Shown here one piece after another: positions 6,255 through 22,106 of a stretch of DNA of 33,399 nucleotides (position 1 is the first letter of the stretch; every line of letters begins with the position of its first letter). The notes under the pieces are model-generated. The model was not told the DNA's origin. It saw only the letters and a list, made by a program, of their open reading frames with translations, and ran no database searches. The DNA comes from Bifidobacteriaceae bacterium. GTDB taxonomy: Bacteria; Actinomycetota; Actinomycetes; Actinomycetales; WQXJ01. Location of the stretch: NCBI GenBank assembly GCA_031257375.1, contig JAIROU010000307.1, positions 1 to 33,399 of the forward strand. Reading direction: 5' to 3'. A program made the translations under genes and the position numbers.

Positions 6255-6565
6255 AGTATTGCCGTACCTCCCTCTGAGTCGCTAGTCGTACTGAAATCAG
6301 CAGCACGGCATCGCCGCGTGGCGTCCAAAAGGCCGCATAGATTCTGTTCTCCAGCCGGGCAAGACGCAGGAACCGAGTCTCCGACGGATACTTGGCAGAG
6401 TCGTCGAACCCTAGTCTGTCGCGCCAAAGACGCTGCGCCCGCTCGAAATCGATCCCGTGTTTCGCGCGGTTGGCTCGGCTCTTGCCCGGGTCGTACTCGA
6501 AAACAGGGGTGCCACGGTGCGGGCGCTGGCCGGGGGGGACCGCTCAGCTCGCCTCGCCCGCCCAT
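6235..6565 (-). pseudogene. brnT: BrnT-like toxin, frameshifted (left module)
   Basis: The minus strand from about 6515 to 6235 encodes a good BrnT body: FEYDPGKSRANRAKHGIDFE, then AAFWTPRGDAVLLISVR, ending RNRR. In that frame there is no start codon before an upstream TGA. The ATG at 6565, which overlaps the DUF4417 stop (TGATG) exactly as in the right-hand copy (TAATG), starts the MGGRG N-terminus but is one base out of frame. The switch falls at a TTTT run just before the FEYDP codons. Deleting one base would restore a protein colinear with the intact copy at 7868. It is thus a single-frameshift pseudogene, a sequencing error or, less likely, programmed slippage. Confidence 0.75.
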
Positions 6566-7197
6566 CACCCATCCTCGGGCAGGCGCGCGACTATGCGCTG
6601 GTCCCGCGCGTAGGGGACAACCACAACCTTGCCGAAATCCCACATCTCGTCGAACGGCTCCCCGTAGCACACCACGATGGAAGGCCGAATCGCCCTGAAC
6701 ATCTCCCCGTAACCGCGCATAAACTCCCAAGGGACGTCGCGGCAACCCACAGTTGAGACCGACACCACAGAACCGATCTCTATACCCGCGAAGCAGAAAT
6801 CGAAGCTCTTCCCCCCGCTCCACGACACAGTTGGAATCACCGTCATGCCTTGAGCCTGCCAATAGGCGCCGCACCAACGGTTCCGGAACGTATTGACAAG
6901 TTGCAGCATCGCGGACGTGTCCATCCATAAGCTGAAGTCCGGTGACAGGACCTGGCGGTACGCGGCCAATTCCGCGAGGTGTCCTTCGGGAGCACTCCAT
7001 ACCTCGTCGAACTTGCCGTCATCCTCGTAGAAGTGGACGCTGGCCGCCGCGCCCTGGACGTCGTCAGTGACGGTGTTGCTGTACCGAATCAGCTGCAGGT
7101 CGTCTAAGGCCACAGCCTGCCTGCGGATCAAGGGCATGTCGTAGCGCCCCACCAACGGCAAGCCCTGTTCGAAATACCATTCGATCAGATGCGCCAT
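6565..7197 (-). CDS. DUF4417-family protein (left module, full length)
   Basis: The 210-residue protein matches the DUF4417 family. The conserved core runs from about residue 97: NTFRNRWCGAYWQ, VIPTVSWSGGKSFDFCF, VVSVSTVGC, FMRGYGEMFRAIRP and VVCYGEPF. The biochemical function of the family is not established; members occur in phages and mobile elements. The gene heads a module in which its TGA overlaps the ATG of the brnT-like gene and brnT in turn overlaps brnA, so the three were translated as one unit. A second, truncated copy of the same arrangement lies at 7521-8420 on the other strand. Confidence 0.8.
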   Translation of the reverse strand: MAHLIEWYFEQGLPLVGRYDMPLIRRQAVALDDLQLIRYSNTVTDDVQGAAASVHFYEDDGKFDEVWSAPEGHLAELAAYRQVLSPDFSLWMDTSAMLQLVNTFRNRWCGAYWQAQGMTVIPTVSWSGGKSFDFCFAGIEIGSVVSVSTVGCRDVPWEFMRGYGEMFRAIRPSIVVCYGEPFDEMWDFGKVVVVPYARDQRIVARLPEDG

Positions 7198-8704: not shown

Positions 8705-8723
8705 CCGTGGGGTTTCCGTGGGG
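8705..8723 (+). repeat. Copy 3 of the GTGGGG double-box repeat
   Basis: CCGTGGGGTTTCCGTGGGG is identical to copy 1. It lies about 130 bases inside site C, a distance at which arm-type integrase-binding sites would be expected in an attP/attL half-site. The ATG used by the ORF track for the following gene lies inside this repeat, which argues against that start. Confidence 0.5.
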
Positions 8724-8844
8724 TTCGGGGCACCCGCGGACAGCGGGAAACGGGAAAATGAAGAGCGCCGCGGCCGTGAGGCCTGCGACGCTCTTCCCAA
8801 CCCCGTTGCCGGGGAATTGTGCTTCAACTGTAACCTGGGATGTG

Positions 8845-9639
8845 ATGTTGCCGCAACCAGAACCCAAGCTCGTGCCGGGGCTGCTGGCCATGGTGGCGCC
8901 AGAGCGCCTGCGGAAGTTCCGTCGAGCCGCCCCGGCAGGGGCGCACCGGGCGGCCCTCAGCATGTATCTGGTGGATGCCGAGTTGACCTCGTACTTCCAT
9001 GCGTTGCTGCGGATCGTTGAGGTGCTGTTGCGTGAGGCCATCCACCGGGCGATGCGCGATGCGTTCGGGACACCCAGGTGGTTCGCCGTTCCAAACGTGC
9101 GCGCGCTGCTCGATCCGCGAACCGTCACGGCCCTGGACGACGCGCAGCGAGGCGCCAACCCCAGTGTCCGCGGCACACCCGCCGCAGGCAGTGTCGTGGC
9201 GGGAATGATGTTCGGAACCTGGGTGAACCTCCTTGACACTGGCGCGCGCGGAAATTACGAAGCGGACTTGTGGCGTCCAGTCATTTCCGGGGTATTCCAG
9301 GCTGACCAGCCAACGGCGCCGCATCCGCGGGCTCAGGTTCACGCCCTGGCCAAACGTATGAACTGGGCCAGGAACCGCGTCAACCATTGCGAACCGGTCA
9401 TCTTCGGCTTCCCGCGCAAAGGCCAGATCACTGCCCAGGGTCTGCGGCTGCGGACAACGCCGCACCAACTGCTCGACGATGCCCGGACCTTATGCGGGTT
9501 CATCAGCCCGGAAACTGCGGCATGGCTCGCCGGTTGGCACCAGTTCGAGGACGTGTTGGCAACCCAGCAGGTAGCCGAAGCTTTGCGCTACATCGACCGC
9601 CAGCCCGGAATCGCCCTCCAAGGACGCCGCAGACAATGA
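8845..9639 (+). CDS. Abi-family protein with HEPN motif
   Basis: The 264-residue protein, counted from the ATG at 8845 (preceded by GGGA; GTG at 8842 is an alternative), resembles Abi_2-type abortive-infection proteins. The diagnostic segment is MNWARNRVNHCEP, an RX4H ribonuclease-type HEPN motif. An alpha-helical N-terminal part contains SYFHALLRIVEVLLREAIHRAM. Such proteins are thought to be RNases activated on phage infection. It has no obvious antitoxin next to it. It is the first gene right of site C, on the opposite strand to the large operon that converges on it; the 112 bases between the two stops contain nothing I recognise. Confidence 0.7.
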   Translation: MLPQPEPKLVPGLLAMVAPERLRKFRRAAPAGAHRAALSMYLVDAELTSYFHALLRIVEVLLREAIHRAMRDAFGTPRWFAVPNVRALLDPRTVTALDDAQRGANPSVRGTPAAGSVVAGMMFGTWVNLLDTGARGNYEADLWRPVISGVFQADQPTAPHPRAQVHALAKRMNWARNRVNHCEPVIFGFPRKGQITAQGLRLRTTPHQLLDDARTLCGFISPETAAWLAGWHQFEDVLATQQVAEALRYIDRQPGIALQGRRRQ

Positions 9640-9751: not shown

Positions 9752-10924
9752 CTACTTGGCTGCGGCATGTCGCATGCGAAGCTCGGCTCGGTATTCCCGC
9801 CGGACCTGGTCGTAACGAGCGTCGTCAAGTGCCGCCAGGTAGCTCACGGCATCGCCCGACCAACTCGTGGTCTGCGAGCTCATGTGTCGCCAGGCATATC
9901 TGGGCTGGTCCCTTAGTCCTTCTTTCCAGCAAATCGCCTGGTAGTCGCGTGTAGTAAGGTGCCGTCCGTTTCGGCGTTGGTTGACTTTTGCCAGGAGTTC
10001 TGTGGCGCTGTGGGGATGGGTCTCATTGGGGTCGGTCTTCCTGATAGCAACTCTGCCATTGGCCGTCGGTACGACAGCCACGGCTAGGTCGGCACTCGTA
10101 ACCTTCTTGACTGACTGAAGGCTGATGTCATATACCATCGCCACCCTTGCCATATCGCTCCCCGAAGCTTCGGCTTCTGCCAAGAGCTTGCGCAAGTCCT
10201 CAACGAACTCTTGAGCCACAGCGACCATGCGGGCATTCTTGTCTACTCGCATGAAAGACACGGAGTCCGCCGGTGCCGTGGCGGCCAGCGGCAGCAGTTG
10301 CCAAGTGACGGAGTCCGCTAGGTCCTTCCCGAACCTGGCCAGCACGAAATCGCGGTAGTTCAGGACGTTCTGCTGCAGGAACGGGTAGATCAACGCGCCC
10401 AGCCCTTGCGCGTTGTAGAGGTGGATAGCGCGGTCGCGGAACTCGGTCAGCGCGCTGATGTTGGCAGTTAGGGCCGAGCCGTCAATCCGGTCCGGCCACA
10501 GCTTACTGTTGGTGACCCTGACCAAAGCATGCTGAAGCGACACCGATCGGTACTTTTCGCCGCGCTTCGTGCGATAGAAGAGGGACTTGCCAGCTTGTCG
10601 CAGGGCGGCCTTCAAGGCAAGCTCCCAGGCGTTGGTCAGCAGGATGGTCGTAAGGGGCCGCCGAAAAATTAACGTCGCGCGGCGCGCCCTGGGCGGGCGC
10701 CCGGCGGCGCCGCAGGCCGCGCCCACGTAGCCCAGCTACGAGGGCGGACCTGCGGCTTGCCGGCCATCCCGCCCAGAACCCGCCGCCACGACGTTAATTT
10801 TCCGGCGGCCCCTAACCTCTTCCCGGTAGGCGATCTGAGGCTTGTTGTAGATCTCAATCGCGGACAACATGGCAGAGAGTGAGTTTGCAACCAATCGCCT
10901 GCTCGACACATACGGGGCCGACAT
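9752..10924 (-). pseudogene. DUF3644 (HEPN-like) gene interrupted by a MITE
   Basis: The N-terminus MSAPYVSSRRLVANSL to NKPQIAYREEV lies right of the insertion and the remainder, from TTILLTNAWELALKAALRQ, lies left of it. Joining the two gives a continuous DUF3644-type protein of about 336 residues. The motif FRDRAIHLYN contains RX4HXY, the HEPN ribonuclease signature, so an RNase role is plausible. The insertion plus target duplication is 162 bp, so the frame is kept, but the MITE places a TAG in frame at 10738-10736. Only re-initiation inside the MITE could give the truncated ORF listed at 9752-10726. The start codon lies 15 bases after the methyltransferase stop, so this was the last gene of that operon. 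Confidence 0.8.
10654..10812. mobile_element. MITE, 159 bp, with long terminal inverted repeats
   Basis: The ends GGGGCCGCCGAAAAATTAAC (left) and the complement of GTTAATTTTCCGGCGGCCCC (right) match over about 24 bases with one mismatch. The flanks TAA at 10651-10653 and TAA at 10813-10815 fit a 3-bp target-site duplication. The interior is itself a long imperfect palindrome centred near CACGTAGCCCAGCTACGAG. It encodes no protein. The GGGG-leading ends recall Tn3-family termini but the target duplication is not five bases, so the parent transposon cannot be named. Confidence 0.85.
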
Positions 10925-10939
10925 AGCGCTCTCCTTCGA

Positions 10940-13717
10940 TCAGAACAGGGCTGGGTCGGATTGGTTGGTCAGTTTCGCGTACCGGCGCAAGAGGATACGT
11001 CTTCGGTCGTCGTTGGACGCGCCTTCGGGCACTCGGAACGCATCATCTATCACGGCGTCGACCGTGGCATGGGCTACGAGGACATCTCGCGGCTCGCGCC
11101 CGGCAGCGTAGAGGTCGGCAAGCGACATCTCATACCGCGTCTCATACCGCGTCCGTGCGTCAACGATGGCCCTGGCGCCCTCGATCAACGCCCCCCTTTG
11201 CCTCTCGGTCAGAGTTGGCAGCGGGAACGAGTTGTATGTGAAGGTATTGGAGAACCGCAGGTCGGACTTGATGCGCCCGCCGACGGCCCGCATCCACTGG
11301 ATGAACATCGTGGACGACAGCACGGCGAAGACGAAGCCATCAGGATCGGGAGTCATCGCGTTGGCGTCCCCGCAGATCACTTCTGGCCCAAACCTTGCCG
11401 CCAGGAAGAAGCGGCGGTTCTCACCGACGTGGCGCGGGATCGCCAGGTAGCTGGTCTCTGGTTGCCGCCGCTCGTCGAAGAGCCAGGCTGTCGCCGCCTT
11501 CTTGCGTGTAGGAGCTTTGGCACTGGCAGACCGGAAAGCCTTCACTGCGGAGACTCTGGAGGCGAGTAGCTGTGAACTCGCGATCTCTTCCGGAGTCGCG
11601 CTTTCCAGCCAAAGGCACCACCGGTTGATTCCGTGCAGGAGCTCCCGCGCGCCGACGAACCGGCGAACGAAGCGCCGGGCGATCGGATCTGCTTGTGCAG
11701 TGGCGAGCGATTCCCCGTCGAGGAAAAAGTTCCCATCGTCGGTCGGCTGGCTGCCTTTGGTGACTGTGGGGAGCCGCGCCCCGAGCGGGGCACCCGCACT
11801 GCTTATGTAGATCATCGGCGCGTCCGCGATCAGGTAGGCGTTGATCTGGGCGGCGTCTGTCCGGACCTGTTTGCCTTGGCCGTCTTCGCCATAGGTCCAG
11901 AGCACCGGTTTGGGTGTCGCGGATCTGTCGAAGCCGATGATTGAGACGTGCACAGCCGCCCCGTCTGCCGCCTCGGTCGCCCAGCGGAAAGAACGGTGGG
12001 CGAATCGGCAGCGCCACCCGTTTGCCGTTATGGGCCGCCACAGATATTCAGCGCCTTCGCCCGTGCAGATGGAGTTGGTGGAGACGAAGCCCCAGCGAGC
12101 CTTGTGATCGCCGTAGTAGTCGATCACCTTGGCGTACCAGCAGGTCACATAGTCTAAGTAGCCGTTGTAACGGGTGCCCCAGACGGTCTGAGCTTCAGCC
12201 TTCTGGGTTGCGGTCTTGGTGTATTGTCCGACGAAGGGCGGGTTGCCGACGATTATCACCTGGTCGGATGGGGGAACGATGGCCGCCCAGTCCTCGCGCA
12301 GGGCGTTGCCGTGGATGATGGTGGGGGCCAGTTTGATGGGGAGCCGGTGCGGAGCGGTGCCGAACTCTTCTTCCATTTGCTGGTTGGCCAGGTGGTCTAC
12401 CAGGAGCATGGCGGTCTCAGCGATGCGGGCGGGCCATTCCTCGATCTCTATGCCAAAGAAGTGGTCGATGGTGACGCAGACGTACTGGCTGACGTCAAGG
12501 ACGCCTTGGGCGAGGTTGCCCCTCTCGCTGTTGACCTTGCCGTCCGCCATGTCGAGGTTGCGGCGGTGAACCAGTGCCCGCAGTTCGATGGAGCGCAGTT
12601 CGCGGTAGGCGACCACCAGGAAGTTGCCGCAACCGCAGGCCGGGTCCATGACCCGGAGCGCCTTGAGGTCGTCTAACAGGCGGGTGAGCTGGCCCTTGTC
12701 GTGCTTCGCCCGCTCCAGCCGGTCTTCGAGTTCGTCCAGGAACAGCGGGCGCAGGGTGCGCAGGATGTTCGTCTCGGTGGTGTAGTGCTCGCCCATCTTG
12801 CGGCGGGCCTTCTTGTCCTTCACCGTCTGGAACATGGAACCGAAGATCGCCGGCGAGATAACAGACCAGTCGAAGTCGCAGGCGCCGAGCAGGGCAGCGC
12901 GGAAGCCTTCGCCTAGCTGCGGCAGGTCCAGCGGCTCGCTGAACAGGCCGCCGTTGATGTACGGCAGGCGGTGTAGCGGATGGCCATCATCAATGCCGCG
13001 TTCTGTCTCGGCCTGGTTGGCCAGCGCGAACACCTCAAGGAGTCCCGTATGCAGGTTTTCATCCGTGGTGTGCCGGTCGATGTATGCCTTGAAGATGTCG
13101 GAGCGGTTCTGGCCCCACATGGTGGTGTCGTCGCCGAACAGCAGGAACAGGAGCCGCGCCAGCAGCAGGGTGGCCTGGCCGCCTGTCACGCCGACGGTCT
13201 CCAGGTTCCCGTAGAGCGTGCCCATGAGCTTGGCGGCTTTGCTCGACTCGGATTCAATCTGGACGTCAAAGGCCTCCCGCATGCGCCCCAGCAGCGCGAC
13301 CAGCGTCGGCGGTTGCTTGATGTCGATCTCTATCGCCCCAAGCTTTTGTTCAAGGTCTTGGTTCCGCTCTCCCACCACATACCGGTGCACCATGAGCTTG
13401 GCGTTTATCCCGCCGGTCTGCGAGCGCCGGGGCCAGCGCCAGTCCTGGTAGCCGTCACCGCAGAAAATGAGCAGCCGCTCCTGGCTCTCCTTGCCGACCA
13501 CCGCGTCGATCTGCCGTTGGACTCTTCGGGGCGGCGCCTGGTCGCACACCCAGACCCGGAGACCCTTGTACGATGCCGCCGGGTCAAGCTTGTACGTGGT
13601 GCCCTCGGCCCAGACGGTGAGCGGTTCGCGATCCGGGTTGTTCCAGCCCAGTCGCTTGATGAAGAGCGAGCGGAAGCGGCCGGCGTCTACCAGTTCCAAG
13701 ATGCTGCCGCCGCTCAT
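10940..13717 (-). CDS. Large DNA adenine methyltransferase, MmeI-like, of a putative defence operon
   Basis: The 925-residue protein carries SAM-binding motif I as DPACGCGNF (about 358-366) and catalytic motif IV as NPPF (492-495), the N6-adenine type. Before them is the RRKMGEHYTTETNILR segment typical of MmeI-like enzymes, and after them IEIEEWPARIAETAMLL. A long C-terminal region should hold target recognition. The first 300 residues (with LIFCGDGYQDWRWPR) are not an obvious nuclease, since I see no clear PD-(D/E)XK signature. It probably marks self DNA for the helicase encoded immediately upstream, with which it overlaps by ATGA. A 12-bp tandem duplication near the C-terminus encodes RYETRYE. 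The nearest known analogues are the DISARM DrmMI and type IIG/ISP-like enzymes. Confidence 0.8.
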   Translation of the reverse strand: MSGGSILELVDAGRFRSLFIKRLGWNNPDREPLTVWAEGTTYKLDPAASYKGLRVWVCDQAPPRRVQRQIDAVVGKESQERLLIFCGDGYQDWRWPRRSQTGGINAKLMVHRYVVGERNQDLEQKLGAIEIDIKQPPTLVALLGRMREAFDVQIESESSKAAKLMGTLYGNLETVGVTGGQATLLLARLLFLLFGDDTTMWGQNRSDIFKAYIDRHTTDENLHTGLLEVFALANQAETERGIDDGHPLHRLPYINGGLFSEPLDLPQLGEGFRAALLGACDFDWSVISPAIFGSMFQTVKDKKARRKMGEHYTTETNILRTLRPLFLDELEDRLERAKHDKGQLTRLLDDLKALRVMDPACGCGNFLVVAYRELRSIELRALVHRRNLDMADGKVNSERGNLAQGVLDVSQYVCVTIDHFFGIEIEEWPARIAETAMLLVDHLANQQMEEEFGTAPHRLPIKLAPTIIHGNALREDWAAIVPPSDQVIIVGNPPFVGQYTKTATQKAEAQTVWGTRYNGYLDYVTCWYAKVIDYYGDHKARWGFVSTNSICTGEGAEYLWRPITANGWRCRFAHRSFRWATEAADGAAVHVSIIGFDRSATPKPVLWTYGEDGQGKQVRTDAAQINAYLIADAPMIYISSAGAPLGARLPTVTKGSQPTDDGNFFLDGESLATAQADPIARRFVRRFVGARELLHGINRWCLWLESATPEEIASSQLLASRVSAVKAFRSASAKAPTRKKAATAWLFDERRQPETSYLAIPRHVGENRRFFLAARFGPEVICGDANAMTPDPDGFVFAVLSSTMFIQWMRAVGGRIKSDLRFSNTFTYNSFPLPTLTERQRGALIEGARAIVDARTRYETRYEMSLADLYAAGREPRDVLVAHATVDAVIDDAFRVPEGASNDDRRRILLRRYAKLTNQSDPALF

Positions 13718-16700
13718 GGCGCCACGCCCATCGTCGTGATGATCCGCACCGGGTCTTCGCCCGCCTTGGTGGGGATGACCAACTTGCCATCGGAGTGAAG
13801 ACTCCCCAGCAGCGCGAACAGGTCTATGTCGCTGACCCCGTTGCGGATGGCTCGGCGCAGGCGCGTCTCAGCCAGGCCGGTCAACGGGTGTTGGTAAAGG
13901 GCCTCCAACGCCAAATGGCCTTCATCGTCGGTGTTCGCGGGTTGGAGCGGCTCTCCGAGCCGCGTCCAAACCCGCTTGCGGACCCCGCGCAGACGCCCTG
14001 AGGCGGTGGCGGCTTTGGTCAAGTCGCCGCGGACCATCGTTTCAACAAGCGAGTCGTGGTCTTCCCTGAGCGGCTGTCCGGGCTCGTGCGGGTCGGCCCG
14101 GAACAAGGCGAGCGCCTCATGGCCGGTGAGGTGACGCGGGGCTAGGCCCGGCCCGCAGAACGCGAACCCGTCCACGCCGTTGGCGGAGCGCACGTAACAC
14201 CCCACCCCATCGGCCTGCTCGCCGAGCCGTTTGGCACGGGTCGCATCCACCATGTCCGGCATCGCCGGGGTGCGCTTGGCCAGTTCCGGCTCGCGTTCCA
14301 CCGCTTGACTCCAATACTGGTAGGCGAGCGAAGAGGCGTCCACGTCCTCGTCGGTGGCGATCTCATCCAGCTTGCCGTTGTACAAGTCTTCGATGATCTG
14401 GGTCTCGTCGGCGGAGCCGAAGAACTGCTCATCGGAGCCGAACGCCTGGGCGTTGGCGGCCAGGCGGTTCCCGATCCGCTGCCTAAGCGAGATCACATTA
14501 TCGACGCTCTCATGGAAGAAGGAGTAGATCACCACCTCAGCCGACCGCTGGCCGATCCGGTCGACCCGCCCGGCGCGTTGGATCAGACGGATGATGGCCC
14601 AAGGTAAGTCGAAATTCACCACGACGTGGGCGTCCTGGAGGTTCTGGCCCTCCGAGAGCACGTCGGTCGCCACCAACACGCGCAACTCGCCTTGATTCGC
14701 CACTGCTCTCTCGCCCGCAGCGCCGTTGGAGCAGGGAGCGAACCTCGCCGCCAACAAGGTCGGGTTCTCACTGTCTCCCGTCGCCACACCAACCTTCGCG
14801 ATGCCTGCGACCTCAAGCTGTTTGCCGAGGTAGACGGCAGTGTCCTGGTACTCGGTGAAGATCAGCACCTTCTCCTGCGGGTGGTCGACCTTGAGCAGCC
14901 TCACCAGTTCATTCAGCTTCGAGTCGGCCCCGGCGGTCCACGGCCCGTACCAGTCCAGCAACTCTCTGATGGCCGCGCTGTCGTGCGCGATGTCGGCCGC
15001 AAGCCGACCCGAGAACAATTCGGCTCGCACCCACTCCACGCCGCTGGGGTCGGATTGCCGAAGGGCCTCATATGCGGCGCCCGGATCAGCCTCGCCTGCC
15101 GCGTCGCCGTCCAACGTGCCGTCGGCGTCATCGTCCAAGCTCAGGGCGGAGATGTCGCCTGTTGGCACGGGCAGCCCGTCGGACAGCGCGTGCAACCATA
15201 GATCGTTGCGGGCCAGGTGCCGCCGGAGCGAAAGCTCGAAGGAGAACCCGCAAGACGACAGCCGCTTATACAAGGTGGTCCTGACAAACCCAGCCACATG
15301 CCCCCTACCGCGGGTGACGCGGTCGAAAAACTCCAGCTCTGCGTCGGTCGGTTTGACGGTGCGCAGCACATACTGACCAAGCTGATAGCGGGGCAGCTTC
15401 AGAGACAAGATCGCGTCGAGCGTCGCATCGGAGGCCATCTTGGTTGCGGGGTCGTCCGGGCCGAATGAGTGGTCTACGGGTCTTGGGCTACGACTGGGGA
15501 ATGTGAAGCGGCTGCCGTCTGTGAACTCCAGGTACCGCTCGCCTGTGGCCAAATCGGTCTTGGAGTAGCTGGATTCAATAAACGAGCGGGTTCGTCTGAC
15601 CAAATGCTCTGACATCAGCCGCTTCCAATCGTCGGCGTCCTCGGATTTGCGGAACGCAGCCAAGGTGGTGGTCTTGGAGTCCACACTGTCGGCGATGTTC
15701 GGGTCTTCGCGCAGGGCGTTCAGGGGCGCTATTCCGAGGTCGTCGTCATCGTCCACATACAGAGCGAGTTGGTTGGCGACATCGGCGAACCGGATGTTGA
15801 ACGGTGTCGCCGTGAGCAGCAACACCTTCGATTCGTTGCGTTGGATGTAATCACGGATCGCCTGATAATCCTGGCGCCGGTCGTTTCGCAGCGTATGAGA
15901 CTCGTCGGCGATGACGAACGGATAGCGGCGCAGCTCCGGCAACACTTTTCCGGCCATCGAGTAGGGCACCACACGGCCGTGCAAGTCGTATTCTTCCAAG
16001 TGGTCCTCCCACATCCGTTGCAGATTCTTCGGGCAAAGGACCAATGGCTGGTAGCCATGCTCGTCGCGGAGCATCAGCGCTACCGCGATGGCCGTCAAGG
16101 TTTTCCCCAGGCCGACCACGTCGCCGAGCATCGCGCCGCGTCGGTTCATGATCCGCCGGGCGAGCGTGCGCACGGCAGTGGTCTGGTAGTCCAGGAGGGT
16201 TCCGGCGATCTGCTGGGGAACCGAGTACTCCGCCAGGCCGTCGCGAACATCGCGGGACAAGTCGTAGCAAAGCTTCAGGAACACGTCGTACGGCCGCCGA
16301 GGGCTCGGCGCCGCCCAGGACTCGTCAATCAAGTCCAGGATGTCATCTGTGACATCGAGAGAGAACCTGTCGTTCCAGCGGTCCTCGAACCACCGAGCCA
16401 AGTCCGCCGCCCCCTGATTGTCCAGCACGTCAACGTTCAATTCGTAGTTCGAGGTCAGTCCCGGATACGTCAGGTTCGACGAGCCCACAAAACCGACAAT
16501 CGGACTGTTCACGCTGGCGGGCTTGTGGAAGATGTAGGCCTTGCCGTGCAGCGGGCGGGCTGTGAAAACTTTGACTTGGACCTTTCCCGACTTGATCTGG
16601 GCACGCAGCGCTTGCAGGGTCTGGCGGTCATCCGGGGTCGGAAGGCCCCGCATCAGCTGGGTCCTTAGATGCTCAACCAACTCCCCGCAGCGCGCCATCG

Positions 16701-16980
16701 CTGTGGAACCGTCAGCGTCGAAGACGCGGCGTCCGTCAACACAAGCCTGCAACCCGTCCAACGCCTCGCGGTGCGCGGTGCCCGTCGCCATGCCGATCAG
16801 CACACGCGCAACCGGGTCGTCGCCAGCGGGACGGTTGTCCACCAGCGGAGCGAATGTGCCCCACCCGCGGAGGTTGAAGTAGCCGACCGCCACGTCCATC
16901 CGCTCGAACCCGTCTTCGAACGTAGCCACCAAGTGTTTGCCGAGTTCGTTGCCCTTGATGTTGTCGAGAATGCGGGTCAC
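13714..16980 (-). CDS. PLD-nuclease/SNF2-helicase fusion of a putative defence operon
   Basis: The 1088-residue protein starts at the GTG at 16980. Residues about 1-220 form a phospholipase D-like domain with HGKAYIFHK and GSSN (HKD-type motif, near 145-170). Residues about 265-860 form an SNF2-type helicase: Walker A GDVVGLGKT near 286, Walker B DESH near 359, motif III LLLTATPFN, and C-terminal motifs LIFTEYQDTAVYL, ATDVLSEGQNLQ and QRAGRVDRIGQ. It should translocate on DNA and may cleave it through the PLD domain. Separate PLD and SNF2-type proteins occur in DISARM (DrmC, DrmD); here they are one chain and no DrmA or DrmB is present. It overlaps the methyltransferase start by four bases. 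The N-terminal extension in the ORF track is probably untranslated. Confidence 0.85.
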   Translation of the reverse strand: MTRILDNIKGNELGKHLVATFEDGFERMDVAVGYFNLRGWGTFAPLVDNRPAGDDPVARVLIGMATGTAHREALDGLQACVDGRRVFDADGSTAMARCGELVEHLRTQLMRGLPTPDDRQTLQALRAQIKSGKVQVKVFTARPLHGKAYIFHKPASVNSPIVGFVGSSNLTYPGLTSNYELNVDVLDNQGAADLARWFEDRWNDRFSLDVTDDILDLIDESWAAPSPRRPYDVFLKLCYDLSRDVRDGLAEYSVPQQIAGTLLDYQTTAVRTLARRIMNRRGAMLGDVVGLGKTLTAIAVALMLRDEHGYQPLVLCPKNLQRMWEDHLEEYDLHGRVVPYSMAGKVLPELRRYPFVIADESHTLRNDRRQDYQAIRDYIQRNESKVLLLTATPFNIRFADVANQLALYVDDDDDLGIAPLNALREDPNIADSVDSKTTTLAAFRKSEDADDWKRLMSEHLVRRTRSFIESSYSKTDLATGERYLEFTDGSRFTFPSRSPRPVDHSFGPDDPATKMASDATLDAILSLKLPRYQLGQYVLRTVKPTDAELEFFDRVTRGRGHVAGFVRTTLYKRLSSCGFSFELSLRRHLARNDLWLHALSDGLPVPTGDISALSLDDDADGTLDGDAAGEADPGAAYEALRQSDPSGVEWVRAELFSGRLAADIAHDSAAIRELLDWYGPWTAGADSKLNELVRLLKVDHPQEKVLIFTEYQDTAVYLGKQLEVAGIAKVGVATGDSENPTLLAARFAPCSNGAAGERAVANQGELRVLVATDVLSEGQNLQDAHVVVNFDLPWAIIRLIQRAGRVDRIGQRSAEVVIYSFFHESVDNVISLRQRIGNRLAANAQAFGSDEQFFGSADETQIIEDLYNGKLDEIATDEDVDASSLAYQYWSQAVEREPELAKRTPAMPDMVDATRAKRLGEQADGVGCYVRSANGVDGFAFCGPGLAPRHLTGHEALALFRADPHEPGQPLREDHDSLVETMVRGDLTKAATASGRLRGVRKRVWTRLGEPLQPANTDDEGHLALEALYQHPLTGLAETRLRRAIRNGVSDIDLFALLGSLHSDGKLVIPTKAGEDPVRIITTMGVAP

Positions 16981-17092
16981 ACGTAAATGTTCCCACCCGC
17001 CGTGACCGCCCCGCCACCTGCGACCCAACGCCTGAGGCGACAGAGCATAGGCCGTCGCGGGGATGCCGATCGGCGCGTCTCACAAGTCCGGC

Positions 17093-17632
17093 TCAGATGA
17101 GCTGTACTCGCGCACGGGTTGAGCTGCCCGGTGTGAGGCCGCCATTGTCGGTGCTGATGGTTCGGATGGCGGCTGTGGGGCGGCGTCGAGACGTCAGTCG
17201 GCTGGGGTCGTGTTCGACGCTCCCCTCCCTGCGGTCGGCCTGGTCAAGGGCTGGGTCGTATGCTGGTCGGGTCGCCGCCGGGCCGCTAGCAGCCGCTTTG
17301 GCCAAGGCTGTGAGTGCCGCCTGGGCATCCGGCCTAGCGAGCACGGCGGCGTAGATCTCGCGGGCGCGGTCGCCTTGCTCGGTGCCTTGCCTACGGTAGG
17401 CGTCGCGGTTGGCGCGTGGGTTCCCCAACTCCGGCAGGTGCTCGTAGCCGATGCCGTGTTCGGCCAGCTTCTCGGCCAGTTTCCGCTTCGAGAACCCCGG
17501 CTTGCGGGACAGCGGCGTCAGCCTTACATCGAACACCACCGACACACCTGAGGAGACCAGGTCAGCGATGACCTCTTCAACCGCGCAGCCCTCGTAGCCC
17601 ACGCCGACCAATCCACCCGGTTCACGGGTCAT
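17093..17632 (-). CDS. DUF488-family protein, possibly with a decayed C-terminus
   Basis: From the ATG at 17632 (preceded by purine-rich AGGGCAGCG) the protein has the DUF488 N-terminal features: VGVGYEG, VVFDVRLTPLSRKPGFSK and YEHLPELGNPRANR. Members usually end in a CFE...CHR segment; here the corresponding stretch reads PAYDPALDQADRREGS with no Cys, and the last 40 residues look out of family, so the C-terminus may be eroded. The function of DUF488 is unknown. The gene precedes the PLD-helicase by 112 bp on the same strand and is the likely first gene of the operon. The ORF-track start at 17923 includes relaxase-derived DNA and is unlikely. Confidence 0.65.
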   Translation of the reverse strand: MTREPGGLVGVGYEGCAVEEVIADLVSSGVSVVFDVRLTPLSRKPGFSKRKLAEKLAEHGIGYEHLPELGNPRANRDAYRRQGTEQGDRAREIYAAVLARPDAQAALTALAKAAASGPAATRPAYDPALDQADRREGSVEHDPSRLTSRRRPTAAIRTISTDNGGLTPGSSTRARVQLI

Positions 17633-17906
17633 CGCTGCCCTGCTCCCACCTTGCGGAAGCTCGGGGTAATCCCGGCTAGGCCGCATGCGTTGTGGCACGA
17701 ATAATCCTCTCGCCTCAAGGGCAACCATGGTCTCTCTTACGCTGGTCAAAGGCCCAGAGCGGGGCCCGGCGCGGTCCAGGGCGCCGGGGTCGGCTGGTTC
17801 GAGCCAGTGTATCGCGCATGAAGCGCATGTCTGGCGCGGGCAGCGTGGGCGCGTTCGATGTGGCTCGCACGCCGGCCGCTGTGGGTTCGGCCGCGCCGGG
17901 GAACCC

Positions 17907-18116
17907 AGCGGTGTGCGCGGCATCGTTCTCAGTGGTGGCGACGTAGGCGGTGTTGGCGCGCCGGCTGCGGGTCAAGGCGACGTAGAGGGTTTCCCTGGTC
18001 GCCTGCGTGGTGATGATGGCGTGGGCGGTGTCTGTGGTGACGCCTTGGGACCTGTGCGCCGTGGTCGCGTAACCCAAATCCAATCGATCGGCCACAGAGG
18101 AGGCGGGCGGCACGAC
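17907..18116 (-). pseudogene. Fragment of a MobF/TraA-type conjugative relaxase
   Basis: About 70 residues match the C-terminal helicase motifs of TraA/TrwC relaxases: LGYATTAHRSQGVT, then ETLYVALTRSRRANTAYV. A full protein would exceed 1000 residues and include a N-terminal transesterase domain; none of that is present. The frame stays open to 17715 but family resemblance ends near 17900. It shows that a conjugative plasmid or ICE once occupied this locus. Confidence 0.7.
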
Positions 18117-18558: not shown

Positions 18559-19371
18559 GTGAGCAGGCGTGAGGTGTACCCGAACGCTCCGATCGTGCTG
18601 GTGGCCATCGAGATCCGGCATCCCGCGGATGGGCCGCTTGGGCGCAGCCACCGGATGCAGCTGTCAACGTCGGTTCGAGATGTATTGCCGGTGCCTGACG
18701 AGGCGACCACGGTCACGGTCGAACTCCTGGCCGCCTCGGACCGCCAGCCGGCTCAAAGGCAAATGGTCACGTCTGTCCCGCGGTGGACGGCTCGCGATAG
18801 GAGGACCGCGCTGACGGTTCGCCCCGACGGTCTTGTCATTGAGACTAGTAGGTACCGCGGGTATGAACAGATTCGCGACCTGCTGGAGCTGGCTTTGCGT
18901 GCCCGCGCGGCCGTCTCGGCCCCCGCAGGTGTGGAGCGCATCGGGTTGCGCTACATTGACGAGATCCGCGTCCCGTCGGACAGGACTGATGGCCGGCCAT
19001 CTTGGCAGGAGTGGGTTGACCCGTCTTTGCTCGGGCCAGTCCATGTTGCCGACGGCATCGGGTTGACCCCTGCCGGGGGCGAGGGTATATCGGTGTTTTC
19101 GGGGACAGGCGACAAGGCCCTTGTGCTCAGGTACGGGGTTCAGGACGGCTACGCGGTCCAGTCGACGCCGCAGTTGCGTCGGCCGCTTCCGCCGCCGGGA
19201 CCCTTGTTCAAACTGGATATTGATAGCTTTTGGCAGTCGGCGAACGAGGTGCCGGAGTTCACCGTGGACTTTGTTCTTGAATGCGCCGACGAACTGCACG
19301 CGCCGGTCAGTGACCTGTTTGAGAGCTTGATTTCGGATCGGCTTCGAGAGGAAGTACTGCGCAATGGGTGA
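18559..19371 (+). CDS. TIGR04255-family protein
   Basis: The 270-residue protein has the features of the sporadically distributed TIGR04255 family: YPNAPIVLVAIEIR at the N-terminus, a central ERIGLRYIDEIRVP and a C-terminal FWQSANEVPEFTVDFVL followed by a helical LHAPVSDLFESLISDRL. The family has no assigned activity and is scattered across mobile and defence regions. It is the first gene of a three-gene operon, and its last eight bases overlap the next gene. The GTG start follows the promoter directly with no Shine-Dalgarno. No catalytic motif is obvious. Confidence 0.75.
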   Translation: MSRREVYPNAPIVLVAIEIRHPADGPLGRSHRMQLSTSVRDVLPVPDEATTVTVELLAASDRQPAQRQMVTSVPRWTARDRRTALTVRPDGLVIETSRYRGYEQIRDLLELALRARAAVSAPAGVERIGLRYIDEIRVPSDRTDGRPSWQEWVDPSLLGPVHVADGIGLTPAGGEGISVFSGTGDKALVLRYGVQDGYAVQSTPQLRRPLPPPGPLFKLDIDSFWQSANEVPEFTVDFVLECADELHAPVSDLFESLISDRLREEVLRNG

Positions 19372-20023
19372 TGCGGTAACCGCTAACGCCGCTGTCGCGT
19401 CCGCGTTGACGGAGCGTGGAACCGCGAGTGATCTGATGACCGGCCCGGCTCGTTCGGAGACCAGACTCATGGCCGCGCAGCTGACTGAAGAAGTCGGTGG
19501 CAACCGTGGCGAGGCGCGCGCACTCCAGGCAGAGTTCGGTGATCTGCACCAGCGGATTCACAATGCCGAGTGGCGCATTGCCGCCGCCGAGCGGGCGAAG
19601 GCGAGCGTCGCGGCGATGCTGGGCGAGTTGGCGGATCTCGGTTTTTCCTGGCGAGAAATCGCCCAGCTTGTGCGTGTCAGCGTTCCGGCGGTCCAGAAGT
19701 GGCGCAAAGGCGACAGAGCGTCCGGCGAGAGCCGGCTAAGGCTCGCCAGCCTGCTCGCCGCCTGTGACCTGATCGGCGAGCACTACATGGTCGATGAGAT
19801 CGCGTCCTGGTTCGAGATGCCGCTGTCAGCCGCCGCCCCGGTGACTCCGATTGACTTGTATTCGGCTGATCGCGCCGATCTGGTGTTTGAGTTCGGGAGC
19901 GGCCATGCGGACCCTGAAGCGCTGCTAACCCAGTTCGATCCCGGTTGGCGCGACCGCTACCGGTCTGATTTCGAGGTGTTCGAGGCGGGCGACGGCAATC
20001 GATCTCTGCGCTCAAGGGCCTGA
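19364..20023 (+). CDS. Helix-turn-helix protein, second gene of the TIGR04255 operon
   Basis: The 219-residue protein has a predicted coiled or helical segment at about 40-85 (EARALQAEFGDLHQRI) and a clear HTH at about 88-120 (LGFSWREIAQLVRVSVPAVQKWRKG). The C-terminal half, with ACDLIGEHYMVDEIASWFEMPL and ALLTQFDPGWRDRY, recalls the toxin-binding or replication-associated half of Xre/MbcA-type antitoxins but I cannot assign it firmly. It could be the repressor/antitoxin of the operon. It overlaps the TIGR04255 gene by eight bases and is followed by the third gene after three bases. Confidence 0.6.
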   Translation: MGDAVTANAAVASALTERGTASDLMTGPARSETRLMAAQLTEEVGGNRGEARALQAEFGDLHQRIHNAEWRIAAAERAKASVAAMLGELADLGFSWREIAQLVRVSVPAVQKWRKGDRASGESRLRLASLLAACDLIGEHYMVDEIASWFEMPLSAAAPVTPIDLYSADRADLVFEFGSGHADPEALLTQFDPGWRDRYRSDFEVFEAGDGNRSLRSRA

Positions 20024-20948: not shown

Positions 20949-22106
20949 TCATTTCGACGCGACCAGGCGTAGCCTGGCATAGCGTGGCGGGGTGGAAGCC
21001 TGCCCCATGTTTGCCCCACGCGGCGGGGGCAGCGCGGCCCGTATGTCGTCCGCGGTGGCGGGCGCGAAGTGGGCGTAAAGCTCGGTGGTCCGGGTCGATG
21101 AGTGGCCGAGCAACTGCGCTATGCGGCTGAGCGGGACGCCGGCCTGGGCGAGCCAAGAGGCATGGGTGTGGCGAAGATCGTGCAAAGTCGGACGCATGGC
21201 CGCCAGCCCGGCCGCCCTGACGGCGGGCTCCCACACTCGGCGCGTGAAGTTGCGGTTGTCGAGCGGGCCTCCGTTGCCGTTCGGGAACACCAAGCCCGAC
21301 GGGCACTCGCTGTGCCTGTGGGGAACGCCGCAGGGGCGCGGCTCGGGCACGGCCAGACGCTCGACGGCCCAGTCCATGAGCGGGACTCGCCGGAGCCGGC
21401 GGCCCTTCGGGTAGGGCTTGATCTCTTTGCCGCCCACCACGTCGGCCACCGTCACGACGCGCCCCTCGGCGTCAAAGTTGTGGACGTGGAGCCCGGCGAG
21501 CTCGCCCCAGCGGACACCGGTCCCCACCAGGAAGTCGAGAACGGCCCGGCTCTGCTGGTCATGCTCGGGAACCGCGCCCACCAGGGCGGCGTATTGCTCG
21601 CGGGTGAAAAAGACTGGCTCCTCGGGATTGTCTGGCGGCAGTTTGATCCTGGTTGCCGGGTTGGCCTGTAGCAGGTCGGCGTCGATGGCGGCGCTCAAGC
21701 TGGTGCGGAGGACCGCGAGGATTCGCCGGACGCCGGACGCCTTGTGCCCGTTGCCCTCGGTCAGCAGCCCGGACGCCCAGGCTTGCACGTCGTGGCGGCG
21801 GATTTCTGCGAGTTGCACGTCTCCCCAGCGCGGCATTATGTGGGTGTTGACGATGCTGGTCTCGGCGGTGAGCGTCTGCGGCTCCACCGCGCGTGACGGC
21901 CACCAAATGTCGCGCCATTTCGACCAGGTTATTTCGCTTGCGCGCGGATCGAGCGCGCCGGGCTTCCGCGCGTTGACCTCGGTCTCGGTGGCGGCGTTCA
22001 GCGCCGCCTGCTTGTGCTTGTAGACGCCGACCGACCGTTTCGCGCCGTTCCGGAGCCGGTACATGCCCCGCCACCTGCCAGACGGCAGTTTCTCTGTCCA
22101 GGCCAT
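20949..22106 (-). CDS. int: Tyrosine integrase of the phage-like element
   Basis: The 385-residue protein has an N-terminal AP2-like arm-binding region (LPSGRWRGMYRLRNG), a SAM-like core-binding domain around 75-165, and a catalytic domain with the first Arg in GTGVRWGELAGL, the box II LHDLRHTHASWL (His-x-x-Arg), the LLGHSS His and the nucleophile in TTELYAHF. All catalytic residues are present. It points toward attachment site D, the expected arrangement for an element integrated in tRNA-Thr. Near its end the DNA has two CCCCA boxes in TGCCCCATGTTTGCCCCACG, possibly arm sites. Its ATG overlaps the stop of the DUF4236 gene by one base. Confidence 0.95.
   Translation of the reverse strand: MAWTEKLPSGRWRGMYRLRNGAKRSVGVYKHKQAALNAATETEVNARKPGALDPRASEITWSKWRDIWWPSRAVEPQTLTAETSIVNTHIMPRWGDVQLAEIRRHDVQAWASGLLTEGNGHKASGVRRILAVLRTSLSAAIDADLLQANPATRIKLPPDNPEEPVFFTREQYAALVGAVPEHDQQSRAVLDFLVGTGVRWGELAGLHVHNFDAEGRVVTVADVVGGKEIKPYPKGRRLRRVPLMDWAVERLAVPEPRPCGVPHRHSECPSGLVFPNGNGGPLDNRNFTRRVWEPAVRAAGLAAMRPTLHDLRHTHASWLAQAGVPLSRIAQLLGHSSTRTTELYAHFAPATADDIRAALPPPRGANMGQASTPPRYARLRLVASK

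Follow-up and report, generated by a model that had tools for sequence, protein, structure and literature searches.

A predicted two-gene, ATP-dependent split Type IIG-like restriction-modification pair of the AchA6III kind, flanked by broken DUF488 and DUF3644 genes in a Bifidobacteriaceae bacterium

In the window, by which we mean the whole 33,399-nucleotide stretch of contig JAIROU010000307.1 that was analysed, four genes follow one another on the minus strand in the order DUF488, PLD-SNF2 helicase, MmeI-like methyltransferase and DUF3644. DUF488 is separated from the helicase by 112 bp, the helicase stop and the methyltransferase start overlap by 4 bp (ATGA), and 15 bp lie between the methyltransferase and DUF3644; these spacings are exact when the helicase start is placed at the GTG at 16980. 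The earlier note, made from the sequence alone, had described the same four genes at these places and had read them as a restriction-type defence locus that it could not match to any named system. The order, the common strand and the spacings were all reproduced, Pfam recovered every family it had proposed (DUF488, PLD plus SNF2 helicase, MmeI-type methyltransferase and DUF3644), and the restriction-type reading is held to be correct.

The helicase gene (13714–16980, minus strand) is intact and encodes a fusion of a PLD nuclease with an SNF2 helicase (Pfam PLDc_2, RE_NgoFVII, SNF2-rel_dom and Helicase_C), so that nuclease and helicase do stand in one chain, as had been claimed. The open frame extends to 17028, and the GTG at 16980 is preferred as the start because of the alignment to relatives whose sequences begin with MTRIFDN. 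Across 16 aligned homologues the PLD residues H161, K163, GSSN182–185 and E196 and the SNF2 motifs GxxxGLGKT (Walker A), DESH, SEGxNLQ and QRAGRVDR are fully or almost fully conserved, and the protein is predicted to be the restriction and translocation subunit.

The adjoining gene (10940–13717, minus strand), also intact, encodes an adenine methyltransferase with a target recognition domain (TRD) and a C-terminal domain of the MmeI type (MmeI_Mtase 2e-79, MmeI_TRD 6.5e-57, MmeI_C 7e-8, with MmeI_hel also matched), in which the NPPF and DPACGCGNF motifs are present. The methyltransferase, helical spacer, TRD and C-terminal domain are common to this protein and MmeI, and a profile of 12 homologues aligned to the MmeI structure (PDB 5hr4) at 2.1e-287, although only from residue 136 on. 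MmeI is a single chain with an N-terminal PD-ExK nuclease, whereas in the window the nuclease is a separate protein, predicted to be ATP-dependent. The ExK motif is absent from the window methyltransferase and from 10 split relatives (11 split sequences checked), whereas L019, a one-chain relative, has it. A one-chain MmeI Type IIL enzyme was rejected as an assignment since the N-terminal PD-ExK is missing. AlphaFold2 models of the methyltransferase (4-sequence alignment, mean pLDDT 43) and of the helicase (6-sequence alignment, mean pLDDT 48) were unusable at these values and were excluded from fold searches, and the domain folds given here therefore rest on sequence.

Far from being unnamed, the arrangement of these two genes fits the published description of AchA6III, in which a methyltransferase/TRD protein of MmeI architecture without PD-ExK adjoins a fused PLD endonuclease/translocase, and for which nine orthologues are present in REBASE (Blow et al. 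2016, PMC4752239). The window has the same kind of methyltransferase/TRD protein without PD-ExK, and the PLD and SNF2 parts are likewise united in a single adjoining ORF, here with the 4-bp overlap. A pair on plasmid pACHL02 of Pseudarthrobacter chlorophenolicus A6 aligns with that of the window over nearly the full length, at 51% identity for the helicase and 40% for the methyltransferase; we infer that it is the REBASE AchA6III, from the matching description and organism rather than from a record number. The loci differ in their surroundings, the window pair lying between a DUF488 fragment and a disrupted DUF3644 gene, while on pACHL02 the slot after the methyltransferase is occupied by an unrelated 331-aa gene. 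Judged by its domains and by this likeness, the core of the locus is very probably a two-gene, ATP-dependent split Type IIG-like restriction-modification system of the AchA6III kind.

What such a pair would do can be sketched with MmeI and the published account of AchA6III as guides, and these two are the basis for all that is said here on activity, strand specificity and complex formation. The MmeI-like protein would recognise a short asymmetric site via its single TRD and would methylate adenine there for self-protection, probably modifying a single strand in the manner of MmeI. The same methyltransferase/TRD protein, presumably in a complex with the PLD-SNF2 protein, would direct the latter to an unmethylated site, and the PLD-SNF2 protein would then move along the DNA at the expense of ATP and cut it by means of its PLD domain, with defence as the likely outcome.

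Similar components are known from other systems. An SNF2 helicase, a PLD and an adenine methyltransferase are also the ingredients of class 1 DISARM, and the HKD-SNF2 helicase of the Type-2 BREX-related (BR; DUF499)/Hma systems (PMC12839542) resembles that of the window in its N-terminal HKD/PLD domain and in its association with an adenine methyltransferase. Together with partial PADLOC matches to DrmD and DrmMI, these likenesses might point to a degenerate DISARM or BREX-related (Hma/Type-2 BR) locus that has lost its other components, but we regard such an origin as extremely unlikely. The window methyltransferase belongs to the MmeI group, and its best PADLOC match is Type IIG at 1.4e-245, against 4.9e-28 for DrmMI; the helicase matches several helicase families, each only partially, and reaches 138 bits with the DrmD profile against a cut-off of 610. 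In contrast to class 1 DISARM, the PLD is fused to the helicase and DrmA/DrmB are missing: no genes of these types were present among the window ORFs scanned, including those flanking the pair, and the sole MZB-domain (PF09369) protein of the genome lies on another contig. A search of the entire genome, at about 89% completeness, yielded no DUF499 (PF04465), and there is no DUF3780 among the ORFs scanned with Pfam. Since the two-gene form recurs in relatives, it is not the product of a one-off loss. Membership in DISARM was thus rejected on the absence of DrmA/DrmB and the low DrmD score, in agreement with the earlier note, which had set the locus apart from DISARM for lack of DrmA and DrmB, and membership in the Type-2 BREX-related/Hma systems, as defined in PMC12839542, on the absence of DUF499. 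CglI and NgoAVII also place a nuclease and a helicase-like ATPase alongside a methyltransferase; in those systems (PMC4267653, PMC5737866) nuclease (R) and ATPase (N/H) reside on different polypeptides, and the window pair, with PLD and helicase in one ORF, was not assigned to that group.

The two outer genes are in a different state from the pair. DUF488 (17093–17632, minus strand) is a fragment that keeps the N-terminal two thirds of the domain and continues into an unrelated C-terminal tail: the match to PF04343 (2.3e-21) covers profile positions 2–99 of 121 only, and 24 plasmid homologues align solely within residues 1–97 of the 179. The C-terminal LLCFE...CHR motif is missing here, and its CHR is present in the relatives L063 and L064. 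In a literature search we found no paper linking DUF488 to restriction systems.

The DUF3644 gene (9752–10924, minus strand, ATG at 10924, preceded by GAAGGAG) is interrupted. It carries a DUF3644 (HEPN) domain (2.8e-25) followed by an EC042_2821-type REase-like domain (1.2e-8), and it matches the PADLOC single-gene candidate PDC-S19 at 6.2e-83, although the gene in the window, as opposed to PDC-S19, is broken. The RX4HXY signature of HEPN ribonucleases is indeed present as RDRAIHLY, and R97 and H102 are invariant in a 9-sequence alignment; the HEPN assignment thus stands, and the REase-like domain had gone unmentioned. The DUF3644 gene gave no match in a PDB profile search, nor did the viral collection yield any when scanned with a close relative of DUF3644. 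The DUF3644 profile aligns in two halves (positions 1–28 at 10814–10897 and 20–181 at 10187–10678), between which lies a palindromic, MITE-like insert (10650–10816, not assigned to a strand) of about 165 bp with TTA at both ends. Its 28-bp arms are 93% complementary, and as RNA it would fold into a single long hairpin of −152 kcal/mol; it preserves the frame of DUF3644 and brings in an in-frame TAG at 10736–10738. With the ends TTAGGGGCC...GGCCCCTTA, the element is dispersed in several copies in the host genome, as counted by sequence search: similar copies, complete or partial, were located on several other contigs (G000 C114:15621-15787, C443:2740-2860, C123:1613-1702 and C106:9068-9204), and among such copies is a full-length one that is 92% identical and also has TTA at both ends. 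We found no Rfam match for it. On the integrity of the genes, then, the earlier note had hinted at the interruption of DUF3644 and had overlooked the truncation of DUF488.

The helicase was found in 25 homologous loci, usually with the methyltransferase adjoining. In actinobacterial plasmids and chromosomes the pair is present at 44–69% identity for the helicase and about 40–68% for the methyltransferase, and the 4-bp overlap between the two genes is usual there. Pairs with a more distant methyltransferase were found in cyanobacteria, Pelobacter and other contigs, and a scan of genome contigs with the methyltransferase gave four loci. Plasmid pSYSX of Synechocystis was considered as the source of a characterised relative and set aside, because the published Slr6095 belongs to a different pSYSX system.

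HMMs built from close relatives of DUF3644 and DUF488, which recovered their own members, found neither family in any of the 20 helicase loci or the 5 loci of the viral collection, that is, in 0 of 25 loci, which are not fully independent, several coming from related Rhodococcus or cyanobacterial plasmids, and several of which (L018, L045, L061 and L073) run off the end of a contig. Conversely, around 12 DUF3644 genes of other origin, 6 of which are closely related to that of the window, about 9 kb contained neither a relative of the helicase nor one of the methyltransferase; their hosts are Dietzia, Mycolicibacterium and other actinobacterial genomes. The absence of both families from the 25 loci and the separate occurrence of the DUF3644 relatives indicate that the four genes are not one unit; by this comparison the conserved unit is the middle two genes only, with DUF488 and DUF3644 outside it.

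A true four-gene defence system, in which DUF488 and DUF3644 would both be functional and a HEPN backup RNase would kill or stall the cell if restriction failed, could draw on the common strand, on the 15-bp gap with its GAAGGAG before the DUF3644 ATG, on the HEPN motif and REase-like domain in the DUF3644 sequence, on the published occurrence of HEPN/EC042_2821 proteins in restriction-modification operons (PMC3710099) and on the various effector-like genes that follow the pair in other relatives. Nevertheless, the co-occurrence of the four families that the earlier note had proposed is missing from every homologous locus, a pattern named there beforehand as counting against it, the DUF3644 relatives stand apart from such pairs, and both genes are damaged in the window. 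We therefore consider a functional four-gene system highly unlikely, and as a conserved unit it is largely refuted. The idea of a HEPN backup is reasonable in general. A backup toxin of this kind was rejected for the present locus, where the motif is kept but the gene is interrupted by the in-frame stop, and the abortive-infection RNase suggested earlier could have no such role here. The locus is thus removed as a candidate unnamed four-gene defence system, its conserved part being the published pair and its extra genes local and broken.

The slot after the methyltransferase is differently occupied in different relatives, mostly by tightly spaced accessory genes. In L018, the nearest relative of the window pair (same genus, the contig of G011:C179, 68–69% identity), DUF6119 and RhuM genes stand in place of DUF3644, 14 bp past the methyltransferase. 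The slot holds Schlafen AlbA_2 in L044 and L042, AAA_21 with DUF4276 in L045, DUF2513 in L027 and L068, a weak DprA-like match in L069 and L071, and a GHKL ATPase in L039; in four Rhodococcus plasmid loci (L022, L023, L065 and L066) it contains no tightly spaced effector-like gene. Because the occupants differ among relatives, the slot is variable and DUF3644 is one of its occupants, perhaps an interchangeable add-on. We would suggest only tentatively that AchA6III-type pairs in general carry an interchangeable slot for effectors resembling nucleases or toxins (HEPN/DUF3644, Schlafen AlbA_2, AAA with DUF4276, DUF6119 with RhuM) that may take over once restriction has failed. In such pairs the position behind the methyltransferase may be a good place to seek backup effectors.

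Further upstream of DUF488 lies the C-terminal remnant of a MobF/TraA relaxase (17904–18083, minus strand), which belongs to the context and not to the system; it matches 368 plasmid records, several of them annotated as MobF relaxase, the best at up to about 63% identity, and points to DNA that once belonged to a plasmid or conjugative element. Beyond it is a tyrosine integrase (20949–22106). The broken DUF488 and DUF3644 genes, the relaxase remnant and the integrase are consistent with a mobile, eroding island, and the best explanation of DUF488 and DUF3644 is that they are separately acquired neighbours in a variable island. Such surroundings might also mean that the pair itself is no longer functional in restriction-modification and that methylation alone, or nothing, is active in a decaying island. 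The broken neighbours (DUF488, DUF3644 and the relaxase) and the damage to the pair in relatives, by a frameshift in L018, an IS3 insertion in L024, a stop in G653 and also by truncation, speak for this possibility, whereas in the window both core ORFs are of full length and retain all catalytic motifs, and we hold it to be very unlikely. The broken genes of the pair were located in relatives at L024 10282-14369, L018 1-3016, L043 10285-11859, L067 8979-11980 and G653:C22:31611-34025, which suggests that the helicase or the methyltransferase is frequently lost.

Other genes of the window were seen on both sides of the locus. An ORF at 8707–9639 (plus strand), convergent with the operon, has a weak PADLOC match to PD-T4-5 (8e-9) and no Pfam match, and a DUF4417 protein (3.3e-52) is encoded at 6565–7197 on the minus strand. 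On the other side, at 18559–20023 on the plus strand, a TIGR04255-family gene (3.8e-42) precedes an HTH_23-domain gene, not far from the tyrosine integrase.
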